64,000 nt of DNA from a bacterium (GTDB taxonomy: Bacteria; Omnitrophota; Gorgyraeia; Zapsychrales; Zapsychraceae), in the NCBI GenBank assembly GCA_030429765.1, contig JAUIER010000014.1, forward strand, positions 1 to 64,000, written 5' to 3'. The notes beneath the pieces were generated by a model, which ran no database searches, was not told the DNA's origin, and was given only the letters and a program-made list of their open reading frames with translations. A program made the position numbers and the translations under genes. Within the stretch, counting starts at the first letter, position 1; each line of letters begins with the position of its first letter. Below, one piece after another: positions 5,353-37,367 of the stretch.

Positions 5353-5994
5353 TTACATCTTTGAGATGTTTAATAAATAAACTACAGATAAGATTAACAT
5401 CAGCACCGTAGTAATAACCAGAGCGTATCTAAATTCCTCTTCGGGATCCCGGCGCTCCGGTAAATCATCCAAAGTCTTGGTAAAATCCACATCTTCACGG
5501 CTTAGGCCAGTCAGAATACCAGCCAACAATGCATCTAAACCAGAAATATTATGCGGGATATATATATCCTTAACATCACTCATCTTGAGAATGTAGTAGT
5601 CACAAGCTCTAGTGTACATATGTTCGACGCCCAATATATCATACCAATCAAATTGAACTGTTTTATGCAAATACTTTATACGTACATGTGATTCAGCCAA
5701 ATAAATTGTTATTTTATTACGAATGACAAACCAAACACCGATAACTACTGGTATCAATACCAGTATATGCTCATCTGGTTTACTTGAATACAAGATCAAA
5801 ACTATAATTAGTAATAAATAATGAAAACCATAGTTGGTCAATAGATAGGCCGGATGGACTGAATAATGTACACCGTCCATGGTCACTGATCTTTCGCGAT
5901 CTCTCAACCAAGTCTTTGTAAGGACGTATACCGTGAAGTACACATTCAGAAAGGCCAACGGTAAAATGAGTATAACCCTGTAAAAATCACTCAT
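5353..5994 (-). CDS. Membrane protein, possible bacterial PH-like domain
   Basis: This is a 213-aa protein I cannot assign to a named family. It has a membrane helix at about 5-26, two more at about 50-72 and 78-98, a soluble beta-rich stretch at about 100-150 (IRIKYLHKTVQFDWYDI), and a C-terminal helix at about 190-209. Helices followed by a stretch of this kind resemble bacterial PH-domain membrane proteins, but that is a weak inference. It is visibly more AT-rich than its neighbours and lies between the convergent kinase gene and a lone copy of the MITE end (6131-6148). That fits recent acquisition. Confidence 0.7.
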   Translation of the reverse strand: MSDFYRVILILPLAFLNVYFTVYVLTKTWLRDRERSVTMDGVHYSVHPAYLLTNYGFHYLLLIIVLILYSSKPDEHILVLIPVVIGVWFVIRNKITIYLAESHVRIKYLHKTVQFDWYDILGVEHMYTRACDYYILKMSDVKDIYIPHNISGLDALLAGILTGLSREDVDFTKTLDDLPERRDPEEEFRYALVITTVLMLILSVVYLLNISKM

Positions 5995-6149: not shown

Positions 6150-7889
6150 TTAGAACGGTTTGAAGGCGTTGTGGGCTTTGAGCTCTTGAAGCTCGGCGAG
6201 CCAGTCCTCTCGGTCTTCACCTTCGGGGAGTAAACTGCGGCGATTGCAATAGATCTTGGCGCAGAGTTCCTGATAACGGCGGGTATCAGCCACCGCCGGA
6301 CTGATGATATCTTCCATCACCCGTTTCACCGCCGCCAACGACATCTTTCGCCCGCGGGATTCCGCCTGCAGTTCGGAACGTAGTTCCGCGAACATCGCCG
6401 GAAAGTAGCCATCGGTGAATTCCAGCAGCTCCTGGAGCTGATCTTTGGTCAACGGATTGGTCGTTACCGCTTCCACCGACCAACGCAGAAAATCCTCCCG
6501 GTCCTTGCCCTGCGGATCCAGCATCGGAATAATCAAACTTCCCGGACGACCGGGCCGCAGCATATCATGCGACAACTTGTCAATCCGCGCCGTTAGCAAC
6601 AACCACTTGACCTTGCCGCGTAATTTTGGATCCGACATCATCCCCAGAATACCGGCTTGTAATCGCTTCTCGGTCGGATGCTGCTCACCGGAACTCAAAC
6701 TGGTGAACTGCGCGTCGGCTTCATCGATAAATATCAGGACGTTCATAAACGCGTACAGAATTCGCCGCAACCGCTCCAATCTCAAATCACTTTCTCCGAA
6801 CCATTTGTTCCGAAGGCTTCCCAATACCAGGACAATCATCCCCGATTCCGCGGCAATCGCCTCCCAAAAAAATGTCTTTCCCACACCAATCGATCCGGAC
6901 ACCGCCACACCCGGCAAACTGTCCTTGCCTGTACTCTTGAATCGCGGCACAACCTTTTTGTTGACAAACGACTTGATCTGCGAACACCCCACCACATCCT
7001 TGAGCGTATGTCCTGGGACTTTAAATTTAACGATGTCGCCGAGTTCCCGCTCGATATAATTTTTTACCTCCTCGATCAAATCAGCTTCCCGAATCTTCCC
7101 GCCTTTGTGAACCGCATTTCGCAGCAGTCGTCGCAAGGCGAGAATACTTAACCCCGCCGATAATTCCGGCAAACGGCGCACCATGGTTCGCGGGGACAAC
7201 CGATGGTCGCGATCCAGCCCCTCAAACCACTCAACAAAATGTTCACGTTGCGCTTCGGTGGGCGAATCAATCTGCAATTCCATGACATGCGGTAGACGCG
7301 CCACCTTGTCATTCACCTGACTCTTGGATTCACATACCAGAATCGCCGCGTTCTGCGATTCGATAAAGCGCGGATCCTTAAACCAATCCATGCAAATTTG
7401 GATACGGACGCGTTCAGCCTCGGATAGATTCGTCGCCCCATTGGCGGGGATCACCGAATCAATCCCTTCGATCATTATCAACAACTTCTTGGAAAACTTG
7501 GCAGCCGGTGTCTCGTTCATTTCACTCGCGCACACACTCATCTGCTTGAGCAATTCCAGGGCGTAGCTGGGCTTTCCCGCAGTTTGTTTGCATAGTTCCG
7601 GAAATCCCCCATCATCCATCCCGTAACGCCAGTAATCCCAACAGCGGGAAAACTCCTCGAGATCTTCGGCATGCTGAAATTTGATCCCGCCGGTGATCTT
7701 ATACGTCACAATCATATTATCCCGCAACTTCATACTGTCCTTCAGAAAACGGATCAACGGCACATAACTGTCGGCCGTCTGAGAATAAAAGTGATCATGC
7801 ACGTTGCCGGTCAAAATAATCGTACTGGCCTCCAATGAATTGATGATACGGCCTGCGGTCAATAAAAATTCATATTTCAGCTTCTTCAT
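6150..7889 (-). CDS. Ycf46-like AAA+ ATPase, last gene of the envelope operon
   Basis: This 579-aa cytoplasmic ATPase has a degenerate N-terminal AAA-like half (about 1-280; beta strands LLIMIEG and AAILVCE, no Walker A). An active C-terminal AAA+ module follows, with Walker A GSIGVGKT (332-339), Walker B VLIFIDEAD (384-391) and an arginine-finger-like MLRPGRPG. A dead plus a live AAA half is the Ycf46-type layout. Its start overlaps the ABC ATPase stop by 4 bp, so it closes the nine-gene operon. Because that operon encodes a PspA-like protein, remodelling of a membrane-bound PspA assembly is an attractive but unproven role. The stop codon abuts a MITE-like end. Confidence 0.88.
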   Translation of the reverse strand: MKKLKYEFLLTAGRIINSLEASTIILTGNVHDHFYSQTADSYVPLIRFLKDSMKLRDNMIVTYKITGGIKFQHAEDLEEFSRCWDYWRYGMDDGGFPELCKQTAGKPSYALELLKQMSVCASEMNETPAAKFSKKLLIMIEGIDSVIPANGATNLSEAERVRIQICMDWFKDPRFIESQNAAILVCESKSQVNDKVARLPHVMELQIDSPTEAQREHFVEWFEGLDRDHRLSPRTMVRRLPELSAGLSILALRRLLRNAVHKGGKIREADLIEEVKNYIERELGDIVKFKVPGHTLKDVVGCSQIKSFVNKKVVPRFKSTGKDSLPGVAVSGSIGVGKTFFWEAIAAESGMIVLVLGSLRNKWFGESDLRLERLRRILYAFMNVLIFIDEADAQFTSLSSGEQHPTEKRLQAGILGMMSDPKLRGKVKWLLLTARIDKLSHDMLRPGRPGSLIIPMLDPQGKDREDFLRWSVEAVTTNPLTKDQLQELLEFTDGYFPAMFAELRSELQAESRGRKMSLAAVKRVMEDIISPAVADTRRYQELCAKIYCNRRSLLPEGEDREDWLAELQELKAHNAFKPF

Positions 7890-8821
7890 ATTCTCTGATC
7901 TCCAAATGATTCCCGGTCCTGATTTCGGTCTTGCAGATGGCCGGGATCAAAAACGGACCTGGCAATTTCATCTTTTTGGAACTGCATGGCCTGATGATCA
8001 ATGGCCTGAGCGGGTTCAAACACCGGAGCGCTTTTATCATACACAAACGTAGCGCCGGGAAACACCTTGTGAGCCTTCTGCCAATCCCAGTTCATGGAAA
8101 TGCCCAACACCCTATTCCCCACTCGAATAGCCTCTGAAAGTTCGTGTGTCACCAGCAAAATCGTGTACGGCGGTTTTTGCCCCGTCTTCTTGGCCTGTTG
8201 ATTCTCCGCATACAACTCCAATAGCATATCCTGGAGTTCAGACCGCGTGGCTTCATCCAAGGCGCCAAAGGGTTCATCCAACAGGAGAATCCGCGGCTTC
8301 ATAATCAAGGCCTGGGCGATGGCGACACGCTGACACATCCCGCCGGATAACTGACTGGGGTAACGGTCCAGGGCATGCCCTAACTTGACTTTTTTGAGAA
8401 TGACCTCGGCCTGCTCCAAATGTGTTTTTCGCAATGCCTTCCATTTGAATGGACGGAAAAGCCGGAGCGGCAGTTTGGTCTGGTCGACCATCAATCCAAA
8501 GGCCACATTTTCGATGGCCGTGAGAAATGGAAACAGACTGTAGCGCTGATAGACAATCCCGATATCGCGGTCCGGCTTGAGCCGCACAGTGGCCTCCTGA
8601 TTCTTATCACCGGAATAAACGATAATCTTTCCGTATTCAGGCGGATGCGTTCCCAGAATGGCCCGCAACAACACCGACTTTCCGCAACCAGACGGCCCGA
8701 CAAGGGACACGATATCTCCCTCGTTGACCTTTAGATCCAGGTCGTGCAACACCCTGTTTTTACGAGGCTCTTTACCAAATGAATGGCTGACATTCTGTAT
8801 TTCTAAAACTGTTGGATTCAT
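7886..8821 (-). CDS. ABC transporter ATP-binding protein (TauB/SsuB/NrtD type)
   Basis: This is the ATPase of an ABC transporter whose permease and binding protein lie directly upstream. Visible motifs are Walker A GPSGCGKS (42-49), Q-loop Gln92, signature LSGGM (158-162), Walker B LLLDEP (179-184) and switch His226. The nucleotide-binding fold ends near residue 245. A polar tail of about 65 residues, with no motif I recognise, extends beyond it. The nearest relatives by motif and context are taurine/sulfonate/nitrate importers. The spacing is 3 bp to the permease and a 4-bp overlap with the AAA+ gene. The substrate cannot be read from sequence, and the operon suggests it may not be a conventional nutrient. 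Confidence 0.95.
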   Translation of the reverse strand: MNPTVLEIQNVSHSFGKEPRKNRVLHDLDLKVNEGDIVSLVGPSGCGKSVLLRAILGTHPPEYGKIIVYSGDKNQEATVRLKPDRDIGIVYQRYSLFPFLTAIENVAFGLMVDQTKLPLRLFRPFKWKALRKTHLEQAEVILKKVKLGHALDRYPSQLSGGMCQRVAIAQALIMKPRILLLDEPFGALDEATRSELQDMLLELYAENQQAKKTGQKPPYTILLVTHELSEAIRVGNRVLGISMNWDWQKAHKVFPGATFVYDKSAPVFEPAQAIDHQAMQFQKDEIARSVFDPGHLQDRNQDRESFGDQRI

Positions 8822-8824
8822 GAT

Positions 8825-9628
8825 CTATTGCCTTTGTACATACCAGCGACACATGCGTGCCTGAACCAAACGAAGGATCCAATCCATCACAAAACCGAAG
8901 ATGATCAATAGCACCAGGTACGGATAAACTACATCCATGTTGACCAATCGCGCTTGCAGCCTCAACCGATATCCAAATCCGATATGGGCACAGGCATACT
9001 CAGCCGCGATGAGATACACCAATGATGGACCGATCTGCAGACGAATGGAATTGATCATATTTGGCAGGACTTGTTTGATGATAATATTGAAGACCAACTC
9101 GGCCTTGGACGCGCCAAGCGTGATCCCCTTATTGATAATCTCCGTCGGAATATCCCGGATGGACAGGTATATGCTCTGCGCGAGAATCGGAAGGATTCCC
9201 ACCACAATAATCCCCACATACATCCCCATCCCTGTCCCCAGCATCACAAAGAACAGGGCCAGCGCCGCGGTCGGCGGCAATTTAGCGAGCACCGCCAGAT
9301 AGGGAGCCACGGCCGCTTCAAAGATCGGAAAACACCCCATCGACACACCGATCACAATGGCGCCGAGCACTCCCCACAATAGTCCCAAAAACAATCGCTT
9401 GGCCGATTCCTTGGCGTCTTCAACCAGCCATCGTTCACCCGACCGCTTGTTGGGTTCGACGATTTTGTGAACACCTTCTTTGAGTTGGGTCCATGTGGGG
9501 ATGGACTTGTCCTTGGGATTCTTCACGTGCTGCCGATGAGACAGCCAGGTGTAGCCGGCCAACATGGCGGCCACGGACAACACACTGACAAACAGTCTCA
9601 ACGCAGGCTTGATTTTATCACCGACCAC
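8825..9628 (-). CDS. ABC transporter permease (TauC/SsuC-like)
   Basis: This 267-aa inner-membrane permease has about six helices. The first is at about 10-28, then a ~50-residue periplasmic loop, then helices from about 77 onward. The cytoplasmic EAA coupling motif is GASKAELVFNIIIKQVLP (about 171-188). It pairs with the ATPase 3 bp downstream and the binding protein 9 bp upstream. The organisation matches binding-protein-dependent transporters of the nitrate/sulfonate/taurine family. The long first periplasmic loop may be a docking surface for the operon's extracytoplasmic partners (inference). Confidence 0.93.
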   Translation of the reverse strand: MVGDKIKPALRLFVSVLSVAAMLAGYTWLSHRQHVKNPKDKSIPTWTQLKEGVHKIVEPNKRSGERWLVEDAKESAKRLFLGLLWGVLGAIVIGVSMGCFPIFEAAVAPYLAVLAKLPPTAALALFFVMLGTGMGMYVGIIVVGILPILAQSIYLSIRDIPTEIINKGITLGASKAELVFNIIIKQVLPNMINSIRLQIGPSLVYLIAAEYACAHIGFGYRLRLQARLVNMDVVYPYLVLLIIFGFVMDWILRLVQARMCRWYVQRQ

Positions 9629-9637
9629 AATTCACCT

Positions 9638-10687
9638 CTATTTTGCCGCTACATTTTTAATGTATGTGGAATCAAACGTAAGATTGCCCGGCTGTCCGCC
9701 AAAGGAAACAGACGGCGTCTCATCCACGATTCCTCGTTTCATCGAATAACTGACCACCTTCTTCATCGTCGAGGGCAGGGCCTCACCGTCAAAAAGCTCG
9801 ATCGCTGATTGAGGCGTCGCGTAAAACTTGGTTTGTTTAACGACCTCACGCATGCTCTGCAATCCCAGGTTACTGAACTTTTCACCCAAGGCAATCAACG
9901 TGCTGTCACCTTCAGCCGGATCGGCTAACAGATTATTGAGTTCATAGAAGGCGTCGATGACCGCGTGCGCGAATGCCGCTCCGCCCGGCTTGGCCAGCGA
10001 TTCTTTATTGGCCACCACCATATCGATGATTTCTCCCGGAATCCCGGTTGAATCAAACATGACCCGTGACGACGGGACTTTTTCAAGCGTGTCGAGAACA
10101 AATGGGTTCCAAACCACGATCGCGTCCAACTGTCCTTGCTGAAACTGCATCGCCGCCACACCGGGATCCATGTTCACAAAATTAAAATCATCGGGATTTT
10201 GTCCCTGAAGTTCCAAATTAGAATCAAACGTGTAACTGGACACACTTAAATCCAATCCCGCGACTTTGACACTTTTAAGATCATTAAAGTCTTTGACATT
10301 CTCGCTCACGATCAACGCGTCAGCCCCATGCGACGTCGAGGTCGGCAGGATCGCCACCGAATCCAGCGACAAGGACGGACTCAGAATGTCCATGTTTGTG
10401 ATACACACGGCGTCGGCTTTTCCGGAGGCGTAGAGTTGGATCGTTGAGTCATAATCCATTTCTTCCAGGACAATGTCGACCTTATATTTTTTTTCAACCG
10501 ACCCAAGTTTTCCCTCACGACCATTGATGAATCCCGCTTCATTCAAGACACCAAAGGCGCTCCACGAAGGGTACTCACTCCACGCCAGGGTAAATATGGG
10601 ATAATCTTCCGCCATCGTTTTTTTAGAAATAACAAATACCGCCGCCGCGATGATGCACACGACAATGATCAGATTTAGCTTTTTCAT
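9638..10687 (-). CDS. NMT1/SsuA-like periplasmic substrate-binding protein
   Basis: This 349-aa exported protein has an N-terminal hydrophobic signal (about 4-22) and no lipobox. A two-lobed binding-protein fold of the NMT1/TauA/SsuA type follows (ADAVCITNMD, GLDLSVSSYT, LDAIVVWNPFV). It lies 9 bp before the permease, so it is the most obvious feeder of the transporter. Two other proteins of this operon carry the same fold fused to an OmpA domain, giving three paralogous binding modules for one permease. The ligand is unknown. Confidence 0.92.
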   Translation of the reverse strand: MKKLNLIIVVCIIAAAVFVISKKTMAEDYPIFTLAWSEYPSWSAFGVLNEAGFINGREGKLGSVEKKYKVDIVLEEMDYDSTIQLYASGKADAVCITNMDILSPSLSLDSVAILPTSTSHGADALIVSENVKDFNDLKSVKVAGLDLSVSSYTFDSNLELQGQNPDDFNFVNMDPGVAAMQFQQGQLDAIVVWNPFVLDTLEKVPSSRVMFDSTGIPGEIIDMVVANKESLAKPGGAAFAHAVIDAFYELNNLLADPAEGDSTLIALGEKFSNLGLQSMREVVKQTKFYATPQSAIELFDGEALPSTMKKVVSYSMKRGIVDETPSVSFGGQPGNLTFDSTYIKNVAAK

Positions 10688-10713
10688 GTTGTCCTCTCCT
10701 TATGTATATGCCG

Positions 10714-11532
10714 TTACTCTTGGTAACTGTCTTTTTGCGGGGTGTCGGCCTGCTTGGGGGCCGGTGTTTCGTCAATCAGTCCGATATCGTTAAAGAACTC
10801 TTCATTACCGCCGCTTTCCGCCAATCGAATCAGTTCCTGTTCTTCCGAACTGTTCTCGTAACCCGATGTCTTCTTGGCCAGTTTGGTACGGTTCTCCACA
10901 TTGTTGACCGTATCGCGGACATCCTTGAGCAATTCCGCTGTTTCATCGTTACTGATCCCGGACTTTAATTCATACAGCTCCCGCCGCTCCTTGGCTGAAG
11001 ATACCTTGGCCATCGCGCGGTCCCGTTCCTGGTTGATATTCTCAAACTCACGCTGCATCTTTTTGATGTCGGATTCAAAATTCTTGAGCTCCTGGGAATT
11101 ATCCTCGATTTCCTGTTCAAGATTGGCAATGTCGGCATTGAGCAGGGCCAGCGACGAACTGGCATCGGCGTTCTTCGCGGCGTACTCCTTGATCTTGGGA
11201 TCATTTTTAATCGTCTCCAGATCCGCCCCCTGCTTCTTGAGCTCACGCGCCCGCTGCTGGCCGGCAATCTTGGAACCCGCCACTATCTTTTCTTTTTGTT
11301 CGGCCTGTTCACGATAATTTTCCAACTGAGCTTTCTGTTTGTCCAGTGAAGACATTAACCGTGAAACCGCCCGGGTGATCGTCTGATACCGCGCCTTCTT
11401 TTCTTCTATGATTCGATTGTATTTCTCTCCGATGACATACGGATCTTCACCCCAAATTTCACTGATTTCATTGATCCGTCCGGTCAGGGCATATCCAAGT
11501 GTTTTGAATAACTTCCCAATGGCTTTAAACAT
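10714..11532 (-). CDS. PspA/IM30-like coiled-coil membrane-stress protein
   Basis: This 272-aa, almost wholly helical, soluble protein starts with an amphipathic-looking helix (MFKAIGKLFKTLGYALTG), as PspA and Vipp1 do. Long charged coiled coils cover about 45-215, and the tail is disordered and acidic. The segmentation resembles the PspA/IM30 (ESCRT-III-related) fold, but the identity is distant and I call it PspA-like only. A good Shine-Dalgarno (GAGGAGAAGG) precedes the ATG. It sits between a membrane coiled-coil protein and the ABC transporter genes, and the AAA+ ATPase ends the same operon. Known PspA proteins bind and stabilise stressed inner membranes. Confidence 0.72.
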   Translation of the reverse strand: MFKAIGKLFKTLGYALTGRINEISEIWGEDPYVIGEKYNRIIEEKKARYQTITRAVSRLMSSLDKQKAQLENYREQAEQKEKIVAGSKIAGQQRARELKKQGADLETIKNDPKIKEYAAKNADASSSLALLNADIANLEQEIEDNSQELKNFESDIKKMQREFENINQERDRAMAKVSSAKERRELYELKSGISNDETAELLKDVRDTVNNVENRTKLAKKTSGYENSSEEQELIRLAESGGNEEFFNDIGLIDETPAPKQADTPQKDSYQE

Positions 11533-11561
11533 TTACCTTCTCCTCGTTTGTCTTCGTTGGT

Positions 11562-12299
11562 TTATTCTGTCTGTCGATGACGCCTTTCCAGCTTCTTCAT
11601 GCGTTCATCCACCTGTTTGGCAATTTCGATTCCTTCATCCAAGTCGCTCATGATCTGCACAAATTCCGCGTGATCCGGCGGCTCACCGACGTTCAATGTC
11701 TGAATCCGCTGAAGGATCTTTCCTAGATAAGAGATCATCGTAGCGATCTCATCAATAATTTTTTCGCGCGTCTCTAAAATTTTTCGCTGGATCGAATGGT
11801 CGGAAATATTCCGGGCACTCTCGATCAAACTCAGCGAATTCTCCAGCCGGTCCACACAGTCCGCGAACAATCGATCCACCCGATCATGCATTTGCAGACG
11901 CGATTGCGCGTCAAGCTTGGAATCTTCACCCAAGGCCGATTTAATCGCCCGCGCCAGTTCACGCGTATCATTCAAGGCCTTATGTGTGCGGGGGTCTCCA
12001 TCCTTGGACAGCTTCTTGTAAAACACATCCAGTCGCTGTTCATGCGCATCGGCCACCTCACCCTTGAGTTCGTTCAAGGCCTCCCGGGCCATTTCCTCTC
12101 CTGACAGCAGAAACATCTGAAGCACCGTCCCGATGGTCAACACCCCAAAGACCAATGGCAAAATATTCAGCAACAGCAGTCTAAACTCAAACGCCCACGA
12201 GGCGATGAGCGATATCACAGTCAATCCCCCGAGGGTGATGACCGGAACGCTCAGAAAAAGCTTCTTTAACAACTTACCCCATAGCTTTTTCTTATCCAC
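11562..12299 (-). CDS. Inner-membrane protein with cytoplasmic coiled coil
   Basis: This 245-aa protein has no family I can name. Two adjacent N-terminal helices (about 15-37 and 40-65) form a membrane hairpin. About 175 residues of charged, helical, coiled-coil-rich sequence follow and should be cytoplasmic. It lies 29 bp upstream of the PspA-like gene and 20 bp downstream of the smaller binding-protein/OmpA fusion. That position suits a membrane anchor or partner for the PspA-like protein, a role played by PspB/C or Lia proteins elsewhere; this is inference from topology and context only. Confidence 0.85.
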   Translation of the reverse strand: MDKKKLWGKLLKKLFLSVPVITLGGLTVISLIASWAFEFRLLLLNILPLVFGVLTIGTVLQMFLLSGEEMAREALNELKGEVADAHEQRLDVFYKKLSKDGDPRTHKALNDTRELARAIKSALGEDSKLDAQSRLQMHDRVDRLFADCVDRLENSLSLIESARNISDHSIQRKILETREKIIDEIATMISYLGKILQRIQTLNVGEPPDHAEFVQIMSDLDEGIEIAKQVDERMKKLERRHRQTE

Positions 12300-12319
12300 A
12301 CTGACTCCTGATCCTGCGG

Positions 12320-13897
12320 TTAGTACGGCATTTGCCCCATCACAAATGACACCGACTGTCCGTCGCCTCCACGGGAAAAAACCTTTGCCGCCTTGGTCCT
12401 CACCCGATTGGGGCTCACCCGCCCCTCATTCACTAAAAATTCCCGCACGGCCTCGGCCCGCTGCCGGGCCAATTCACGGTTGAGTTCGATGTCACCTTCT
12501 TTGCGTGCGTGGCCGACGATCCACAGATAATAGTCCGGCCAAATCTTGAGTTTTTGGGCCAGAGCCTTGAGATCCCGCTGACTTTGAAACCCTATCTTGG
12601 CCTTGCCCCGTCCAAAACTGACAGGATTGATATCCAATCGTCCGACCGGAACAATACGATTCCATTCATCGGCGGACAGAGCCGGTAATTCGTCAACCCC
12701 CTGAATATCCTCGGGATCAAGCAGACCAATCTCTGCGCCCAATACGTTCAACTGTCGGCCGGGATGAAAGTCGCTGTTCTTTAGCGCCAGTAAGATCTTA
12801 TCATAGAAGAGCCGGTTATAGTTGCCGCCAAACGGATCTTCCGACAGGCGGCCGGTCTTGACCAATACTTCCGTAATCCGTTCGATGATGTCTTCTAGAT
12901 GATCAAGCCCTTTGCGCGACATTTCCTGAAGCAATCCAAAATGCGCGTAGTTCTCGACACTGTTCTTCCAGCGTATACCCCCTACAATCTTTTCAGCCTG
13001 CGCGTCGGACAATCGTCCGCCGGTCTTGGCCGCATCTGCCTTGACCAACGATTTCATATCACGTCGATGGTGATACGCCGCCCGTAAATACGCCTCGATA
13101 ACCTTGGAGACCAGCGGTTCATTCTCGGTCAGAAATTCACGCTGCACCACCAGCACATCGACAATAAAGCCTTTCATCTTGGCTGAGTCAATCAGCACAT
13201 GCGCGCCCTGCTGTTCCAAGGCCTTGGACACATCCGGCTCCCACATCACATAGGCCTTCTTCTGCGATGGATCCGCGCGTTTGAACTTGTTGTACACGTC
13301 ATCCGACCCGTTGGCCTCGATCACATAATTCTTGGGCAATCCTTGGAGACTAAAATGCGAGGTGATAATGCGGGCCATAAACTCACTCGGTGAATCCGGC
13401 GTCAGCACCACACGCGCATCCTGATGATCCAGCGCATTGATGTTGGTCATCCCGTCTTTGTAGGCCACCACCGCATCGGCCCCGTGTGATTCATCCAGCA
13501 TCAGCACAATGGTGCCCGGAAATTCGCCTGTATCCACCGAGGCTGTAATCAGAGAATCGACGGTAAATACGGCAAACTGAGACCGTCCGCGTCGCAGCGT
13601 CTGCATGCGTTTGCCATAATCCGCGCCATCATCCTCGAGATTCAGACGTATCCGTGACATCTTCAGCTGATCCCGAAACTCGTCTGATCTCAGAATACTG
13701 TAACCGGAAAACCCGTCCAAACTTATCGAAATTTCATGGTCATATTGACTTTTGGCGCTGGTTTGCTCCTCAAGTTTTTTGGTCTGATCAGGCTTGTAAA
13801 TAAACTTAAAGAAAATGGCAGCACCGAGCGAACACAACACCGCCCACACCATCAAGACCATCACCCATTTAACGCCGCTGCTTTTTTTCTTACCCAT
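12320..13897 (-). CDS. Inner-membrane-anchored substrate-binding-protein/OmpA fusion
   Basis: This 525-aa protein has an uncleaved-looking signal anchor at 11-34. A binding-protein-like region follows (about 50-300; SRSQFAVFTVDSLITAS, SHGADAVVAY), then an OmpA_C-like peptidoglycan-binding domain at about 415-525 with NRELARQRAEAVREFL. It would be tethered to the inner membrane while gripping the cell wall. RefSeq uses names like 'phosphate ABC transporter substrate-binding/OmpA family protein' for similar fusions, but nothing here indicates phosphate. It has a larger, secreted paralogue (14814-16658) two genes upstream. The gap to the VWA gene is 16 bp. Confidence 0.88.
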   Translation of the reverse strand: MGKKKSSGVKWVMVLMVWAVLCSLGAAIFFKFIYKPDQTKKLEEQTSAKSQYDHEISISLDGFSGYSILRSDEFRDQLKMSRIRLNLEDDGADYGKRMQTLRRGRSQFAVFTVDSLITASVDTGEFPGTIVLMLDESHGADAVVAYKDGMTNINALDHQDARVVLTPDSPSEFMARIITSHFSLQGLPKNYVIEANGSDDVYNKFKRADPSQKKAYVMWEPDVSKALEQQGAHVLIDSAKMKGFIVDVLVVQREFLTENEPLVSKVIEAYLRAAYHHRRDMKSLVKADAAKTGGRLSDAQAEKIVGGIRWKNSVENYAHFGLLQEMSRKGLDHLEDIIERITEVLVKTGRLSEDPFGGNYNRLFYDKILLALKNSDFHPGRQLNVLGAEIGLLDPEDIQGVDELPALSADEWNRIVPVGRLDINPVSFGRGKAKIGFQSQRDLKALAQKLKIWPDYYLWIVGHARKEGDIELNRELARQRAEAVREFLVNEGRVSPNRVRTKAAKVFSRGGDGQSVSFVMGQMPY

Positions 13898-13913
13898 ACG
13901 TATCCGATTTCCG

Positions 13914-14771
13914 TTAAAAAACCTTCTTTAGGATTAACAATACAATGATCGCCGTCACAATCCACGAAAAATTAAACGATTTCTCCACCGACGTGTTTGA
14001 AGTGGTCGTCACTTGAGACGACGATTGCGCCTGAGGTCGGTTCACATCGACTTTAACGCCCTCAATCGGCGTGACCGCCGTGGTCGATAAAGCCCCGATC
14101 GCCTGATTCACAAACGCGTCCGGAAGACTATTGATCAGATCAAAGACATCCTGCGACGCAGCCACATCTGAAGTCGATCCGTCAATTTCACCTAGGACTT
14201 CCGAAATCGCCCGGCTGAGCGATTGTGTATCTTTGGCCTGGCGATACGAGTGCACCATCTTGGCCAGACTGTGCTCGGTATTCATAAAAACGCCGATCAC
14301 ATCGACCGTAATCCCCCGCGCCATGATGGCCGGTGTATAACTATTCATCAATCGTCGATCGGAGGCCTCGCCGTCGGTAATAACCAGCAAGCGATAACTG
14401 CCATATCCAAATTGCTTTTCCTTTTGCTGCAAGAGACGATCGGCCCCCATCTTCATGTATTCTCCCAACGGCGTTGATCCGCCCGTTCGAAGTCGATGAA
14501 TGGCCGTGACCAGCCGCTGATCATCGCGGGGTCCCAATTCATAAGCCCAACCGCTGTCCATCCCAAACGACAGCAAGCCTACATGCGTGGATTCCGGAAT
14601 CGTCTTAAGGACCTGCTTCAAGGCCTCTTTGGCCTGGGCAATTTTAGTCCCACTCATCGAGCCCGAGCAATCCATTAAAACCACAATGTTGTCGGTATAT
14701 ACGTCATTGGCGCTGACAGGCACCGCTGACATCAAGAGGAAGCACACCCCCCATAGCAATATTCGTTTCAT
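13914..14771 (-). CDS. Tail-anchored periplasmic VWA-domain protein
   Basis: This 285-aa protein has a signal peptide (1-21, ending VSA). A von Willebrand factor A domain (about 28-190) has a complete MIDAS signature, D34-x-S36-x-S38 in DCSGSMSG, with a downstream GGSTPLGEY threonine. A Ser/Thr-rich linker follows, then a C-terminal helix (about 268-285) ending LILKKVF. The VWA domain is therefore periplasmic and held in the inner membrane, and should bind a metal-dependent protein ligand. It sits between the two binding-protein/OmpA fusion genes, which makes them its likely partners. A Shine-Dalgarno (GAGGAGATA) supports the start. Confidence 0.92.
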   Translation of the reverse strand: MKRILLWGVCFLLMSAVPVSANDVYTDNIVVLMDCSGSMSGTKIAQAKEALKQVLKTIPESTHVGLLSFGMDSGWAYELGPRDDQRLVTAIHRLRTGGSTPLGEYMKMGADRLLQQKEKQFGYGSYRLLVITDGEASDRRLMNSYTPAIMARGITVDVIGVFMNTEHSLAKMVHSYRQAKDTQSLSRAISEVLGEIDGSTSDVAASQDVFDLINSLPDAFVNQAIGALSTTAVTPIEGVKVDVNRPQAQSSSQVTTTSNTSVEKSFNFSWIVTAIIVLLILKKVF

Positions 14772-14813
14772 AATATCTCCTCGTCGAAGTCCGTTAACAA
14801 TTCAAAACCCGGA

Positions 14814-16658
14814 CTAGAAATCAAAATCAGTCGGATTCATCGTTTCCGCACTTGTACGGATAATCGAGAATTCCCCGCGCATATTCTGCTGCGCCTCAAA
14901 CTGATTGCGTGGTTTTGGAATCAACGGCTCACGGATACCGACGCCAAAGGCCTGAACCTGTGATTCATCAACGGTTTGACCTTTGCCTCGGGCGTAATTG
15001 ATAAAACTTTCACGAATCGCCTCGGCCCGCTTTCGGGACAGGTTCAGCGCCTGCTGAACAATCGCCCGGGTGTTATGCTGACCGTCATCAAACACCCCCT
15101 GCTTGATCAATTCAATCGCCTGGGATGTGTTCTCGAGATTCAATGGTCGGCCGTTATAGTAGTACACCCAATTGCCTTTGGTGCCGCTGCGTTTTAAGAC
15201 CCCTTTCGTCATACCGGCCTGTACGAGATTCTTTAAGGCCAGCGTTGGATCGGCATGACCGCGGACGGCGAGCACTGCATTCCCGAACTGTTCCATACTT
15301 TGGAGAACCTCATCAAATTCTGCTGAGTAGGAATCGGCGGAAAAATCCACTTGATTGGCCTTGAAATCGACCGTAAACGACATGATCGTCTTTTCATCCA
15401 GTCCGCCGCGTTCGGTCAGGGCCTCAATCTCCTGTTGCACGGCCTCGGCCTTGAATCGATCGGAACGGACAACCTCCGTGGTTGATAGTCCGCTTAAGAA
15501 TACCGGTGATTTGTAATTAAAGTCGTTGGGTTCGATCGGCTTGGAACTGTTGATAAATCCGAGCCGTTTGGAAAGGTCTAACGAACGGGCCATGAAGGTT
15601 TCGAATCCGCGATTGTTGTTCTTGTCCGTAAAAAAGGCCACGTTGCCCGGATAACCCACAAGGGTGGCATCGATCAGCAAACCGTACGCATCTTCCTCCA
15701 GCGTCGGAATGGTATCCCGCCCGTAGATATCCTGAGTCATTTGCAGCAATTGCATAAACTCCTGCGAACCGCGCGACTCATAGGCCTTTCGCAATTCTAT
15801 AACTTTCTCGGACGCCTGCAGGTATCCGCTGACAAATTTCTCAACCCAGGCTTTGTTCGCGTAATAGAAGTCACTGCGCACCACATACACATCGGCGATC
15901 GAATAACTCATGTTGGCCGTTGACACCAGCACGTGCGCACCAGCGACTGTTCCTTCGGCGCCGCTGCCGGTATTCTGCAGCCCGCCGGTGAGTCCGATCA
16001 TATCCGGGGTGATGACAAACGCGGCCGCGATATCGTCTCGTGAACGAAAGATTTCAGCCGGGCTGTCCGGTGATGCGGTCAATTCGCTGGCCCAGACAAT
16101 GTCAACGTCATCCCACGTCAAATTACCCACACGGAGCACGTCATCCAACATCCCCACGTGAGGTCCGCCGGACTGTAGTACAATCTTTTTACCCTTGAGA
16201 TCCCGGATGGTTTTCACACCTTTGCGGATCACACAGTGATCACCGGCCGACCACGTCATCTGCAGGGCCATAACCCCTTTGGTCTTGGCATCCGAAGCAA
16301 TTAATTCAGACACCTGCCCCATCATACGAAATGTCCCGCGCAAAAACGGCGACTTGCCTTCCATATATTCCTGGGCCTGCTTGGCCAGGTCATCGCGGGG
16401 GACCAGCTCAATGCTTAACCCCAGTTGATCAAATATTGAACCTTTGGCGGTCTTCAATCCACCATTGGCGTAGAATGTGATCATATCTCCACCCCAAGTG
16501 ATGAACGGAACCTGAATCGGTTGAGATGTATTCACATCACCCACCCGGACGGCGCCGAGTGAGTCTTTGAAATTCTGAGCCTGAACCGGCGGTGTAATCA
16601 TCGACAAAGTAAACATGACAAGCAGAACCAGGCTTGCAGCTTGACGAAACTTAAGCAT
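14814..16658 (-). CDS. Secreted substrate-binding-protein/OmpA fusion, first gene of the operon
   Basis: This 614-aa protein has a cleavable signal peptide (about 1-28, ending VQAQ). A two-lobed NMT1/phosphate-type binding-protein region spans about 45-350 (GDHCVIRKGVKTIRDLKG, SADVYVVRSDFYY-like core). A C-terminal OmpA-like domain spans about 440-600 (VRGHADPTLALKN, then LNLSRKRAEAIRESF), with an unusual insert of about 50 residues between those two halves. Unlike its paralogue at 12320-13897 it lacks a membrane anchor, so it can be free in the periplasm and bound to the wall. It is the first gene of the nine-gene operon; 42 bp separate it from the VWA gene. Confidence 0.88.
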   Translation of the reverse strand: MLKFRQAASLVLLVMFTLSMITPPVQAQNFKDSLGAVRVGDVNTSQPIQVPFITWGGDMITFYANGGLKTAKGSIFDQLGLSIELVPRDDLAKQAQEYMEGKSPFLRGTFRMMGQVSELIASDAKTKGVMALQMTWSAGDHCVIRKGVKTIRDLKGKKIVLQSGGPHVGMLDDVLRVGNLTWDDVDIVWASELTASPDSPAEIFRSRDDIAAAFVITPDMIGLTGGLQNTGSGAEGTVAGAHVLVSTANMSYSIADVYVVRSDFYYANKAWVEKFVSGYLQASEKVIELRKAYESRGSQEFMQLLQMTQDIYGRDTIPTLEEDAYGLLIDATLVGYPGNVAFFTDKNNNRGFETFMARSLDLSKRLGFINSSKPIEPNDFNYKSPVFLSGLSTTEVVRSDRFKAEAVQQEIEALTERGGLDEKTIMSFTVDFKANQVDFSADSYSAEFDEVLQSMEQFGNAVLAVRGHADPTLALKNLVQAGMTKGVLKRSGTKGNWVYYYNGRPLNLENTSQAIELIKQGVFDDGQHNTRAIVQQALNLSRKRAEAIRESFINYARGKGQTVDESQVQAFGVGIREPLIPKPRNQFEAQQNMRGEFSIIRTSAETMNPTDFDF

Positions 16659-16955: not shown

Positions 16956-17729
16956 TTAAACCAAGCCCAGCCCCAACAAAACGGCGATGACGACGAGCAT
17001 GATGGAGACGATCAGCTGAACGGTCTTCATGGTGACTTTGCCGAGCAAACGGGTGCCGATAAACACACCGGCAAACGCGAAGAGGACCGCCGACACCATG
17101 AGCTCCGCATACGCCTGATAGTTCGATGCCTTCAGATATCCCCAGTATACAAAAATTCGGGAAAAATCCACCAGACATGCGATGATGACGCCGGTGGCGA
17201 TATAGGCTTCCTTGTTAAGACCGCATTTGAGCAGGAACATACTGCGCAATGCGCCTTGATGTCCGGACAGTCCGCCGAAAAATCCGCTCAGCAATCCTCC
17301 CAGAGGCAAGTATTGGATGGGAAATTGAATCCGTTGAAAAGTCGGCCATAACTCCAGCCCGACAAAACCAATGATCACACCGGCCAACACGAGCTTTACC
17401 GTCGTGACCTCAAGTGTTTGACCGGCCAATTCGTATGTCCAAAGCGGGTCGACGGTCTCCAGGGCAAACAGGACCCGTGCGCCGATGAAGGCCGTGACAA
17501 AGGCGGGAATCCCAAACTTGATCACCACCGGCCAATGCGCCTGTCGGCCGAGCAGGATCAATTTGAGCAGGTTGTTCAGCAAATGGACAACGGCGGTTAA
17601 CGCGATGGCGGTGTCGACAGGAAAGAACAGGATAAAGGCCGGCATCAGGATCGTCCCTAATCCAAACCCCGAAAAAAGCGTCAGGCCCGACGCGATCAAC
17701 GCCACGCCGCAAATGATGATGAATTCCAC
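16956..17729 (-). CDS. TauE/SafE (DUF81)-family membrane permease
   Basis: This 257-aa protein is almost all hydrophobic, with about eight helices and the glycine-rich repeats of the TauE/SafE family (FSGFGLGTILMPAF near the N-terminus, GLLSGFFGGLSGHQGALRS in the middle). Members export or import sulfite, sulfoacetate and other small organic anions. It is separated by about 300 bases from the envelope operon and is a separate unit. The TauABC-like transporter nearby makes a sulfur-compound link conceivable, but the sequence does not prove it. Confidence 0.9.
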   Translation of the reverse strand: MEFIIICGVALIASGLTLFSGFGLGTILMPAFILFFPVDTAIALTAVVHLLNNLLKLILLGRQAHWPVVIKFGIPAFVTAFIGARVLFALETVDPLWTYELAGQTLEVTTVKLVLAGVIIGFVGLELWPTFQRIQFPIQYLPLGGLLSGFFGGLSGHQGALRSMFLLKCGLNKEAYIATGVIIACLVDFSRIFVYWGYLKASNYQAYAELMVSAVLFAFAGVFIGTRLLGKVTMKTVQLIVSIMLVVIAVLLGLGLV

Positions 17730-34112: not shown

Positions 34113-34718
34113 CTAATAGATCTTGCTCCACCACTTGAACTTTCGGCCCCAGGTGTGTTCCCCCGTGATGTGACTGTTCCGTAGAAACGTACCATTGCCG
34201 TTGAGTAATACGGCCCGAATGCGCTTGCGTTCGGCCTTGAGCTCGTCCAGGGTGGGTTGATCCGACATATTTCGAACGACCGGCGTGGCAATACGTCTTG
34301 AAGAATGCGGGCGTGACAGCGGCACCTGGTATACCGGCACCCGAACGGGCCGCTTGCTTGTTTCAACCGGTTTAGAGTATACATCCTCCTCGAATTTGAC
34401 TTCAGAAACACCATCGTACGATTCCGTTGACTCCTCATCCAAGGTACTCGTTGAGGTGTCAAAGGCCGCCTTGGTTCGTTCTTCATGCCTAAAGGTCTGA
34501 AAGGTCTGACTGAATTTATCAGAATAAAGCCGCGGTTCTGGAGCAATCTCGGACTGAACCTCCAGCTGCGGCGTGTGTATCTGTTGAAAAGTCTTGATCC
34601 GATCATCCACCCAGTTTCGATCTTTGGTGAGCGCGGCCTGAGCATGTGTGGCCGAAATGACAATAGCTGTGATTCCCAGGATTAGACCAAAGTGCGGAGC
34701 AAGAATGTGATTTTTCAT
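34113..34718 (-). CDS. Exported hypothetical protein
   Basis: This 201-aa protein has a signal peptide (about 1-28, ending AQAAL). The mature part is low-complexity, rich in Glu, Ser, Thr and Arg, with a final domain-like segment (DQPTLDELKAERKRIRAVLL, residues about 150-172). I recognise no family. A longer Arg/Ser-rich ORF in another frame overlaps it, but only this frame has an export signal. Its mature region is probably disordered. Confidence 0.7.
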   Translation of the reverse strand: MKNHILAPHFGLILGITAIVISATHAQAALTKDRNWVDDRIKTFQQIHTPQLEVQSEIAPEPRLYSDKFSQTFQTFRHEERTKAAFDTSTSTLDEESTESYDGVSEVKFEEDVYSKPVETSKRPVRVPVYQVPLSRPHSSRRIATPVVRNMSDQPTLDELKAERKRIRAVLLNGNGTFLRNSHITGEHTWGRKFKWWSKIY

Positions 34719-34810
34719 TGGAGGCGGTTCCTTAATTGGATGGGTTAGCGTTTGAAATTATCTTACCCTGTCACCGAATAAAAGTCAAAAGATCCCCGTC
34801 CGGGAGTAAT

Positions 34811-35737
34811 TCAGGGACGGCTCAGCGGAGGATCCGCCGATTCATCATCCGGATTGACCACCGGTTCGCTGGCCGCGGGGGCTTCGGGAGCATCCTCCGC
34901 GGACTTCAGATGATCAAAAACGGCTGACAAGGCAATACTGCTGGTCGGAATCGTAAATAACAGACCAATCCCCAGACACAGAACGCCGCCCAGGTTCAGC
35001 AGCAGATTTAAACCGCCGAAAGCCAGCAGATTCCATCGCGCCCCGCGAGTCAAATCCCGGCTTCGTAGCAGCGCCTGCAGCGGCCCCTTCCGTTCGTCAA
35101 TCACCGCGTATCCGGAAAACTGAAGCATCACCAAAAGAAATATACCCGGAATGACGAACAATAAAAATCCGCCGATGATACTGATCCCCATGAGGATCGA
35201 CGCCAACATGTACGTCGGCAGCGTGGACGCCTCCGAAAACAATTCCGTGACAACCGGTCGTTCATCCCGCGCCATCTGCAGGGACATCCGTGTTAATCCC
35301 ATCCCCATCCACATTTCAATCCCCCATAAAACAACGACCAGCAGTAGATACACCGACTGCGGGAATGGCAATCGATACTGATGGATCTGCAAGTAACGAT
35401 AAATTTTACGCCGGTAGGGTTCGAATTCCTCGGATAGATCCAGCTCGTCGGCACTGGACAGATTGAGGAGTTTATCTGTACGCAACCCCTTGTCGGAAAA
35501 ATATCCGTTTCGGATCAAATCGGCGATCACCCCTTTTTTCACTGTATCGTTCGGCAGGACCTTGCTCAAGGCCAACTCATCGACCGCCCGGCCGCCGGCA
35601 TTGTGGTCCAGCATCGTCCGCCCCGCGGTGAAGATGATCACGATGAGGGCCAACGGAAGGATCACTCCAAAATACTTTTTGGTCTGTCCAAAGCCGAATC
35701 GAATGGCATCGCCCTTGGAAAAATGTTTATCATTCAT
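34811..35737 (-). CDS. Polytopic membrane protein
   Basis: This 308-aa protein has about five or six helices (near 22-42, 128-150, 178-205, 218-240 and 250-275). A polar loop of about 80 residues follows the first helix, and the C-terminus is Pro/Glu/Ala-rich. The repeated pattern, with GARWNLLAFGGLNLLLNLGG near the end, resembles DUF975/YciC-type integral membrane proteins, a loose match. A GAGAG Shine-Dalgarno supports the start. It lies 25 bp downstream of the lipoprotein gene at 35763-37367. Confidence 0.78.
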   Translation of the reverse strand: MNDKHFSKGDAIRFGFGQTKKYFGVILPLALIVIIFTAGRTMLDHNAGGRAVDELALSKVLPNDTVKKGVIADLIRNGYFSDKGLRTDKLLNLSSADELDLSEEFEPYRRKIYRYLQIHQYRLPFPQSVYLLLVVVLWGIEMWMGMGLTRMSLQMARDERPVVTELFSEASTLPTYMLASILMGISIIGGFLLFVIPGIFLLVMLQFSGYAVIDERKGPLQALLRSRDLTRGARWNLLAFGGLNLLLNLGGVLCLGIGLLFTIPTSSIALSAVFDHLKSAEDAPEAPAASEPVVNPDDESADPPLSRP

Positions 35738-35762
35738 AATTACTCTCTCAAATTAAGATCCG

Positions 35763-37367
35763 TTATCTCCCCGTTAAAGGGATTTCTTTAAGCTCAAACG
35801 GCAGTTCATATTCCTTGGCCCCTTCATACACGTCATATTCGATGCGTCCGGATGCGGGAAACTCGCCGTCTTTAAGCGTGTAGTTAAAGGTCGTCACATC
35901 TCCCATCGACGAGTATCCGCCGGACGTCTCCAACTGATTTCCCGCGGCATCATAAATGCGCGCTTCTTTGAGCATCTCCTTCTTGATGGCAACCCGCACC
36001 TGCATCGTCTGCTTGCCCGGCTGCCAATTGCTCTCTTCAATCGACACGATCTTCGCGCCGAAATGATCACCTTCGACACCGACGCTGAAATCATTGATCC
36101 CGAGGTCCACCGACTTGACGTCTTCCGAAACCATATAGGTCAGCGTCCCTCTTAACGAACTGATACGCGTGGCGGACGCCGACGGCAACTCAAGGTTCAC
36201 GTCAAATGAAACGGTTTGCTGATCTTTGCCGAGATTAGGAAACGAAATCCGCCGGTTCCACTCGCTCTCCGGTAACAGGTCACGGCCGTGGTCATCTTTG
36301 GCCTCGGTGATGATTCCCTCATTAACACTGATCACCGGACGCGGCAGAATTCCGTAAAGCGCCAGCGTGTAACCCTTATCAAAATTAAACGGCCGGATAC
36401 CCCGTTCGTTATCCGAGTAATGAATCATCCGGACACCGCCCACCTTGAACTTGCCGACGACACCTTCCGGCGCCTTGATTTTTTGTACACCGCCCAACTC
36501 TTCCACCAATGCGGCATAAGGCGCGGTTGCAGCCGCCACCTCGGCCCGGTAATCAAACAGATTGGACTCACTGCCGGCAAAAGTCGCGGTCACTGGCGCC
36601 GCTTCCCCAAATATCATTTGATTGAATTGATCATCGCCTTCCGGTCCATCCTTGACTGGATGTCGGCCAGCACGGAGCATCTCCCGCATGTAATCCTCGT
36701 CCTCGATCAATTGATTGAACACCTCAATCATCTTCTCACCACGGAAGTCAAAGGCTACGGACTGATCCGATAATTTTTCCATATTCGTAACCGATTGAAC
36801 AGCGCCTGATGTGTGTACGATGCGCTGAATCCGAAGCGTGGCCATCACGTTGAGCATCATCGACATCTTGCCGAACTCAGCCTTGGCCTTACGGATCTCG
36901 GCATCAATTTCTTCTTCCGTGAGCTGTTTCGGTTTCTGAGCCTTTTTCTTCTTATCTTTGTCTGACGACGAAATAGTGACGATGGTCTGTCCGCTCTGCG
37001 ACTGAACATCAATCGTGTCATAGAGAGACAGCTTCATCCCCGCATTGTGAAAGCGGAGTTGGCTGATATCTGTAAAATACGCCGTCCCTTGAAATTTAAC
37101 CTGTCCATCGTCGAGCGCTTCATAGGCAACATCAGACCAAACCTCAACCCCCTCGGCCTTCTGTAATTCATCCAGCACCGTCGATTTGGCCTTGACCTCG
37201 GGATCGGCGTCCTGACCACCGCCTAAATCAATGCGCGATAAGACAGCCTCAACCCGAACTTTACCGGTGCCATCCGGATTCAGCCAAAACTCCTGTTTGG
37301 TATCGAGGCATCCGGTCAATACCAGCCCCATGATAACGATTCCGAGTAAGCGCGATACTTTCTTCAT
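35763..37367 (-). CDS. Large lipoprotein of unknown function
   Basis: This 534-aa protein starts with a signal and lipobox (IMGLVLTGC, Cys at about 20), then LDTKQEFWLNPDGTGKVRVE, a beginning common to DUF-type lipoproteins that collect envelope signals. A Lys-rich patch lies at about 145-160. The remainder is beta-rich, and the C-terminal ~190 residues look like an immunoglobulin-like or adhesin-type fold. The ATG at 37367 has GGAGGA just upstream and gives the lipobox a normal position; the longer start at 37403 would not. The function is unknown. Confidence 0.8.
   Translation of the reverse strand: MKKVSRLLGIVIMGLVLTGCLDTKQEFWLNPDGTGKVRVEAVLSRIDLGGGQDADPEVKAKSTVLDELQKAEGVEVWSDVAYEALDDGQVKFQGTAYFTDISQLRFHNAGMKLSLYDTIDVQSQSGQTIVTISSSDKDKKKKAQKPKQLTEEEIDAEIRKAKAEFGKMSMMLNVMATLRIQRIVHTSGAVQSVTNMEKLSDQSVAFDFRGEKMIEVFNQLIEDEDYMREMLRAGRHPVKDGPEGDDQFNQMIFGEAAPVTATFAGSESNLFDYRAEVAAATAPYAALVEELGGVQKIKAPEGVVGKFKVGGVRMIHYSDNERGIRPFNFDKGYTLALYGILPRPVISVNEGIITEAKDDHGRDLLPESEWNRRISFPNLGKDQQTVSFDVNLELPSASATRISSLRGTLTYMVSEDVKSVDLGINDFSVGVEGDHFGAKIVSIEESNWQPGKQTMQVRVAIKKEMLKEARIYDAAGNQLETSGGYSSMGDVTTFNYTLKDGEFPASGRIEYDVYEGAKEYELPFELKEIPLTGR

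Follow-up and report, generated by a model that had tools for sequence, protein, structure and literature searches.

A conserved nine-gene operon of substrate-binding, VWA, ABC transporter, PspA-type and tandem AAA+ proteins in bacteria and large phages

Operons that combine a PspA/Snf7 protein, a double AAA+ protein with a dead first copy, an ABC ATPase, a permease and one PBPB-OmpA protein were described by Ravi et al. in 2024 (mSystems, PMC11237479). These authors propose that membrane remodelling and solute transport are connected, and name as unknown how assembly is regulated in PspA homologues that have no AAA+ protein beside them. Here we report on a related, larger operon of nine consecutive open reading frames (ORFs), g1 to g9, which runs on the minus strand from position 16658 to position 6150 of a 64,000-nucleotide stretch of Omnitrophota DNA; "the window" denotes that whole stretch. 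The nine genes form one conserved system, since the same order, with different flanking genes, is found both in phages and in cellular genomes of two phyla, and since fusions of a substrate-binding protein (SBP) to OmpA co-occur with the double AAA+ family. As in the Ravi operons, a PspA-type protein, a tandem AAA+ protein with an inactive N-terminal copy, an ABC ATPase, a permease and an SBP-OmpA fusion are encoded together. The Ravi operons have a transmembrane (TM) Snf7-like partner; g4 here combines two TM helices with a helical domain and has no Pfam or NCBIfam match. A reading of the window from its letters alone (the sequence-only reading) had called the combination undescribed. For six of the nine parts this does not stand; the VWA protein, the second SBP-OmpA fusion and the free SBP, as well as phage or plasmid copies, are absent from the main text of Ravi et al.

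The operon and its conservation in cellular genomes

The operon comprises the following genes.

g1, 14814..16658, minus strand: secreted SBP (NMT1-like)-OmpA fusion, 614 aa (Pfam NMT1 7.8e-7, OmpA 0.004)
g2, 13914..14771, minus strand: VWA protein with a signal peptide and a C-terminal TM tail, 285 aa (VWA 2.4e-15)
g3, 12320..13897, minus strand: membrane-anchored SBP-OmpA fusion, 525 aa (OmpA 1.2e-11; SBP part TIGR03427 4.5e-11)
g4, 11562..12299, minus strand: two N-terminal TM helices and a cytoplasmic helical domain, 245 aa (no Pfam or NCBIfam match)
g5, 10714..11532, minus strand: predicted divergent PspA/Vipp1 protein of the ESCRT-III superfamily, 272 aa (AlphaFold2 model, Foldseek, hhalign)
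g6, 9638..10687, minus strand: free periplasmic SBP, 349 aa (nearest TIGR03427, "putative urea ABC SBP", 6.2e-47)
g7, 8825..9628, minus strand: NitT/TauT-type ABC permease, 267 aa (BPD_transp_1 1.2e-12; SaoP/TauC-like by NCBIfam)
g8, 7886..8821, minus strand: ABC ATPase, 311 aa (ABC_tran 2.5e-33)
g9, 6150..7889, minus strand: tandem AAA+ protein with a Cdc48/p97-like D1-D2 layout, 579 aa (AAA 3.5e-17)

The intergenic gaps from g1 to g9 are, in order, 42, 16, 20, 29, 26, 9, 3 and -4 bp. ORF calling thus matches the sequence-only reading, which gave nine minus-strand genes with gaps of at most 42 bp and a final 4-bp overlap. Its domain calls are borne out by Pfam or NCBIfam for seven of the nine genes; g4 is without a family, and g5, which lacks a significant Pfam match, was recognised as PspA-like by other means (below). 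It had also named internal terminators as a feature that would divide the operon, and no terminator-like site lies in any of the gaps between g1 and g9. Promoter-like matches are at chance level (16 observed against 17.2 expected). The window encodes valyl-tRNA synthetase, aspartokinase and citramalate synthase, identified by reading the translations, and is therefore chromosomal.

Our searches covered two cellular phyla (Omnitrophota and Acidobacteriota) together with plasmids, phages and IMG/VR; because divergent members escape pattern-based scans, the counts given here are lower bounds. All nine genes were found in the same order at six cellular loci, L007 and L008 (Omnitrophota), L009 (an Acidobacteria metagenome-assembled genome), L059, L060 and L061, while copies cut by contig ends retain g4 to g9 (L010) or g8 and g9 (L006). 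The genes flanking the operon differ between loci. Searching the phyla with g1 showed just 3 of 384 Omnitrophota genomes to have the complete fusion, a patchy distribution, and gave matches in 49 of 396 Acidobacteriota genomes, 37 of them strong. The Acidobacteriota neighbourhoods take two forms, the nine-gene one (L009, L059, L060, L061) and a compact six-gene one made up of PspA, one SBP-OmpA fusion, permease, ABC ATPase, a 2TM coiled-coil protein and the double AAA+ protein. The compact form fits the system set out in the main text of Ravi et al.; the nine-gene form adds the VWA protein, a second SBP-OmpA fusion without the wall-contact Asp, and the free SBP.

In the reverse search with g9, 66 of 396 Acidobacteriota genomes carried the double AAA+ family at a threshold of at least 300 bits, our own cut-off, set at a gap in the score list. 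The family is present in 34 of the 37 genomes with a strong SBP-OmpA match (Fisher p = 2.5e-27 against the 66/396 background, a value to be taken only as a guide because the genomes are related), and of the three exceptions, two or more sit on contigs that are short or truncated (L092, L082). The sequence-only reading had proposed comparing gene order across genomes and had allowed that relatives might almost never co-occur. Order proved to be conserved in two cellular phyla and in phage contigs, and SBP-OmpA fusions mostly co-occur with the double AAA+ family. A chance assembly of unrelated genes, which no observation favours and to which we attach next to no credence, is refuted by this nine-gene order in distant genomes and phages, a recurrence far beyond what chance would give.

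A further 20 loci were fetched around g9, 17 of them from genomes that gave no strong match to SBP-OmpA. Seven (L105, L106, L107, L111, L112, L118, L123) hold the trio of PspA, 2TM coiled coil and double AAA+ protein with no adjoining transporter; a compact-type SBP-OmpA fusion overlooked by the first search is present in three, and at several g9 stands with no other parts detected. The Acidobacteriota loci therefore form a modular series, in which the trio is joined by SBP-OmpA, permease and ABC ATPase, and then by the VWA protein, second SBP-OmpA fusion and SBP. PspA, 2TM protein and AAA+ protein are the constant core in cells; transporter and sensors are add-ons. The trees of g1, g3 and g6 to g8 are broadly congruent.

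Predicted folds and conserved sites

No significant Pfam match was obtained for g5, PspA_IM30 (PF04012) included. Its AlphaFold2 model has a helix alpha0 (residues 2-28), a hairpin (31-100/112-190) for most of which the predicted local distance difference test (pLDDT) score exceeds 80, and C-terminal helices (196-222 and 228-240). When the model was compared with the PDB using Foldseek, the top eight matches were all Vipp1 chains (E 3.2e-4 to 5e-3, prob 1.00, 220-250 aligned columns). By hhalign, g5 also aligns to the PspA-like set of the compact operons (prob 98.4), which passes PspA_IM30 (L075 4.2e-18, L064 3e-8, L105 3.9e-30). As the best PDB matches are all Vipp1 and the aligned Acidobacteriota proteins are Pfam-positive, g5 is predicted to have the PspA/Vipp1 (ESCRT-III) fold, an assignment missed by Pfam and new in this analysis, in line with the PspA-like call made from the letters. 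Its orthologues also fall under the PspA_IM30 cut-off (L009 E 6.6e-4, L104 3.8e-5).

A weak profile link connects g4 to the 2TM coiled-coil protein of the compact operons (hhalign E 1.3e-4, prob 53.6); against g5 the probability is 0.3. The possibility that g4 is XpaC (PF10112) was rejected, there being no Pfam match and an hhalign probability of 0.4 against the XpaC protein of L104.

The full-length g9 model, of moderate confidence (pLDDT 64), matches the tandem AAA+ proteins 55LCC, Rix7 and p97 (Foldseek E 1e-14). D1 has no P-loop, with GNVHDHF at residues 28-34, while D2 carries Walker A (332-339, GSIGVGKT) and Walker B (385-392, LIFIDEAD). Every complete g9 homologue has exactly one Walker A, located in the second domain in the C-terminal half. 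With a single Walker A, in D2, and GNVHDHF at the D1 P-loop site, g9 is predicted to have a dead D1 and a live D2, as the sequence-only reading had it. The hairpin fold of g5 and the AAA+ protein encoded alongside recall ESCRT-III/Vps4 and bacterial Vipp1/PspA; Vps4 is, however, a single-domain AAA+ protein, whereas g9 is a tandem with a dead D1 in a Cdc48-like layout. A Planktothrix plasmid AAA gene could be aligned to g9 over only 39-41%.

In OmpA-type domains one Asp and one Arg bind diaminopimelate (DAP); in A. baumannii OmpA these are D271 and R286 (PMC6572160). In alignment, the OmpA domain of g1 keeps both contact residues, Asp470 (codon 15249-15251) and Arg544 (codon 15027-15029); the Asp is present at 16 of 16 g1 loci and the Arg at 15 of 16. 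In g3 the Asp position is taken by Arg465 (codon 12503-12505) and the second contact, Arg480, is kept. The same holds for 14 of 14 g3 loci, where R, S, G, A or T replaces the Asp and the Arg is retained. This split between g1 and g3 is seen in Omnitrophota, Acidobacteriota, Vibrio plasmids and phages. The single fusion of the compact operons has the Asp in 32 of 32 cases; in the phage-G-type fusions it is kept in some, and is N, A or missing in others. Since all g1 proteins have the Asp and no g3 protein does, probably only g1 is wall-bound. We infer that the wall would be held by g1, and that the inner-membrane-anchored g3 would have a different partner. The notion of peptidoglycan-bound binding proteins put forward by the sequence-only reading agrees with the residues of g1 and is probably wrong for g3. 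A sharp prediction follows, of one wall-bound and one wall-free SBP-OmpA fusion.

The metal ion-dependent adhesion site (MIDAS) of g2, which had likewise been noticed earlier, has the expected DxSxS, T and D residues (D34-S36-S38, T100 and D133), all invariant in alignment. The TM tail of g2 was read from its sequence.

Phage and plasmid copies

In the uncultured phage LR756511.1 (595 kb), which encodes a terminase (phrog_2, 7e-43) and a T4-type portal (1e-74), g1 to g8 stand in the same order as in the window (L127, 15.0-23.6 kb). All nine genes, with g9 intact, follow in order in the IMG/VR contigs L130 and L132, two 65-kb contigs evidently from one virus, and in L184 (94 kb), where g1 lies at 34500-36353 with g2 to g9 after it. 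The 436-kb contig L129 carries g1 to g8, and its g9 (L129/L135) looks interrupted by a deletion and a frame change. Other viral copies reach contig ends after g1 to g4 (L139/L173) or g1 to g3 (L131). Kinase-like genes lie between g8 and g9 in L129 and L130. No terminase (PF03237, phrog_2) was matched in the L129-L131 records; the phage nature of L129 and L130 is assigned from their UvsX, SSB and phage-type helicase genes and the IMG/VR classification.

The cultured Bacillus phage G has a compact version (L128, 7.9-15.0 kb, gp243-gp250), with permease gp243, ABC ATPase gp245, PspA-like gp247 and SBP-OmpA fusions gp249 and gp250. Relatives of this type occur in 23 further IMG/VR contigs (L142-L165), nearly all with permease, ABC ATPase, PspA-like protein and SBP-OmpA in that order. 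An acidic protein adjoining PspA (gp246) is common to these phages and the compact Acidobacteriota operons. We found no report in the literature of phage-borne PspA/ABC/SBP-OmpA operons, although such reports may exist.

The g1 tree unites the nine-gene copies from cells (Omnitrophota, L009, L059) in one group, with the phage copies next to it; the position of L059 relative to the phages is less certain in the g3 and g6 to g8 trees. L060, L061 and Vibrio lie deeper. These placements point to old exchange and not to recent pick-up.

Six Vibrio plasmid records carry both SBP-OmpA fusions. The two plasmids examined in full (L020, L021) encode, in this order, ABC ATPase, SBP-OmpA, VWA, SBP-OmpA, a 257-aa protein, TelA, SBP and permease. 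TelA (PF05816, 2.8e-49) thus occupies the PspA slot, a finding new in this analysis. A relationship of g5 to TelA was considered and rejected; hhalign gives no profile similarity between the two, and TelA is therefore a replacement and not a relative. On plasmids of Variovorax and Sphaerotilus, TelA has an SBP-VWA or VWA protein as its neighbour. These modules, annotated with a "substrate-binding and VWA domain-containing protein", resemble the operon in joining periplasmic SBP and VWA domains with a cytoplasmic membrane-associated partner. They differ in that TelA replaces PspA, SBP and VWA are fused in a single chain, and OmpA is lacking. The common theme of the swaps is a periplasmic SBP and VWA coupled to a cytoplasmic membrane partner. 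Neither the phage copies nor the Vibrio plasmid copies with TelA in place of PspA formed part of the sequence-only reading, which was made from the window alone. In Vibrio coralliilyticus p380 (L022, 9.2-12.9 kb) SBP-OmpA and VWA form an isolated pair close to genes for an integrase and a helix-turn-helix protein.

These copies bear on two proposals. The first is that large phages encode their own complete wall-to-membrane maintenance machine, made up of wall-tethered binding proteins, the VWA protein, the ABC transporter and a PspA/ESCRT-III polymer, to which some phages add an AAA+ protein that recycles the polymer in the manner of Vps4. It would prevent the host envelope from leaking while a long infection runs its course; the cassette would be exchanged among bacteria, phages and plasmids, with the window copy a chromosomal relative. 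We advance this tentatively, as a possibility that falls short of an even chance. Should phages use the operon in this manner, an apparatus that owes its name to the phage response would have turned into a tool of the phages themselves; phage G, being cultured, offers a laboratory system for that use. The second proposal is a conflict module by which phages, plasmids and some bacteria would make the envelope more resistant to rival phages or injected agents (superinfection exclusion), comparable to the role suggested for TelA in Ter systems. Its presence in large phages and Vibrio plasmids, the patchy occurrence in Omnitrophota (3/384) with differing flanks, and TelA in the PspA slot are in keeping with this, TelA/Ter in jumbo phages having been proposed to act against superinfecting phages (PMC7824862). 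SBP-OmpA operons are, however, fairly common in Acidobacteriota (37/396 strong matches), and PADLOC returned only generic ATPase and coiled-coil matches and none specific to a system, so that a known anti-phage defence system was rejected. We consider the conflict module unlikely.

A wall-tethered transporter and a membrane polymer

The genes g6, g7 and g8 resemble NitT/TauT ABC importers (TauABC, SsuABC and the TIGR03427 systems), and the operon might be mainly a solute importer with an SBP of the urea/guanidine or taurine type, OmpA, VWA, PspA and AAA+ serving only to place and protect the transporter. Three SBP domains, a complete permease and ATPase, nearest families in TIGR03427, SsuA and TauC, and the link between remodelling and transport suggested by Ravi et al. 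(PMC11237479) would suit such a function, as would a TauE/SafE exporter gene just upstream of g1 on the same strand (16956-17729). That gene was, however, not found at any other locus compared and was rejected as a member of the system. Unlike the known importers, the set lies inside a membrane-remodelling operon with two added SBP-OmpA proteins, and g6 falls far below the TIGR03427 curated cut-off (160.3 against 333.9 bits). No Rfam riboswitch was matched between 3000 and 22000 of the window, so there is no substrate hint there. Acidobacteriota keep PspA, 2TM protein and AAA+ without a transporter. At L104 (4.3-10.9 kb) an SBP_bac_11-VWA fusion, XpaC (PF10112), an anchored protein, g5 and g9 stand in a row with no ABC transporter, and therefore it is the membrane polymer, and not import, that SBP/VWA sensors accompany. 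Locus L120 (contig C93 of genome G641) likewise has VWA, SBP-OmpA, g4-like, g5 and g9 in a row, with no g6 to g8 between. An operon devoted mainly to import is in our view rather doubtful.

We favour instead, at about an even chance, a wall-tethered, ligand-responsive ABC assembly that controls a PspA polymer, itself recycled by the AAA+ protein, so as to protect the inner membrane, the whole being one envelope-spanning machine. Protection or remodelling of the membrane is preferred because PspA, 2TM protein and AAA+ are the constant core to which transporter and sensors are added. Outside the inner membrane, the three related SBPs (g1 tethered to peptidoglycan, g3 membrane-anchored, g6 free) and the tail-anchored VWA protein g2 would sense both a small ligand and the condition of the wall, and would dock on the NitT/TauT-type transporter. 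Facing the cytoplasm, g4 with its two TM helices would recruit g5, which would polymerise on the membrane and so stabilise or reshape it. The AAA+ protein g9 may then pull the g5 polymer apart and recycle its subunits, as Vps4 does in driving ESCRT-III remodelling (PMC8281802). The analysis establishes the gene set with its order and conservation, the predicted folds of g5 and g9, the single live AAA+ site, the MIDAS, the Asp difference between g1 and g3 and the presence in phages; from these we infer the physical complex, the direction of signalling, membrane protection as output and the action of g9 on g5. Wall-to-membrane signalling is plausible. Such a machine would give the PspA membrane-repair polymer a defined sensor on the outside and an AAA+ ATPase of its own.

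Several observations weigh against this assembly. The g5 model has a mean pLDDT of 68.7 and low TM-scores to Vipp1 (about 0.3), and g5 is fast-evolving (24% between the window and L009). Moreover, no g9 match was found in the LR756511.1 or phage G records, and the Vibrio plasmid version has no adjoining AAA+ protein; g9 is therefore not always needed in cis.

Some neighbouring genes were also noted. A gene 155 bp downstream of g9 on the same strand (5353-5994), encoding a 213-aa membrane protein with no family match, was left out of the operon for its lack of a family, its gap and because it was not found at other loci. A radical SAM gene near TIGR01210 (archaeosine RaSEA) lies directly downstream of g9 in L008 (11705-12706), L010 (6907-7983) and L101 (from 296). 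It was rejected as a tenth member; it adjoins g9 in L008, L010 and L059, and a search of the window genome, run without a positive control, gave no match. Downstream of the operon in L008 (12722-14974) are an SPFH (Band_7_1) protein with a GYF domain and a zinc-ribbon protein; in B. subtilis, too, PspA has an SPFH partner.

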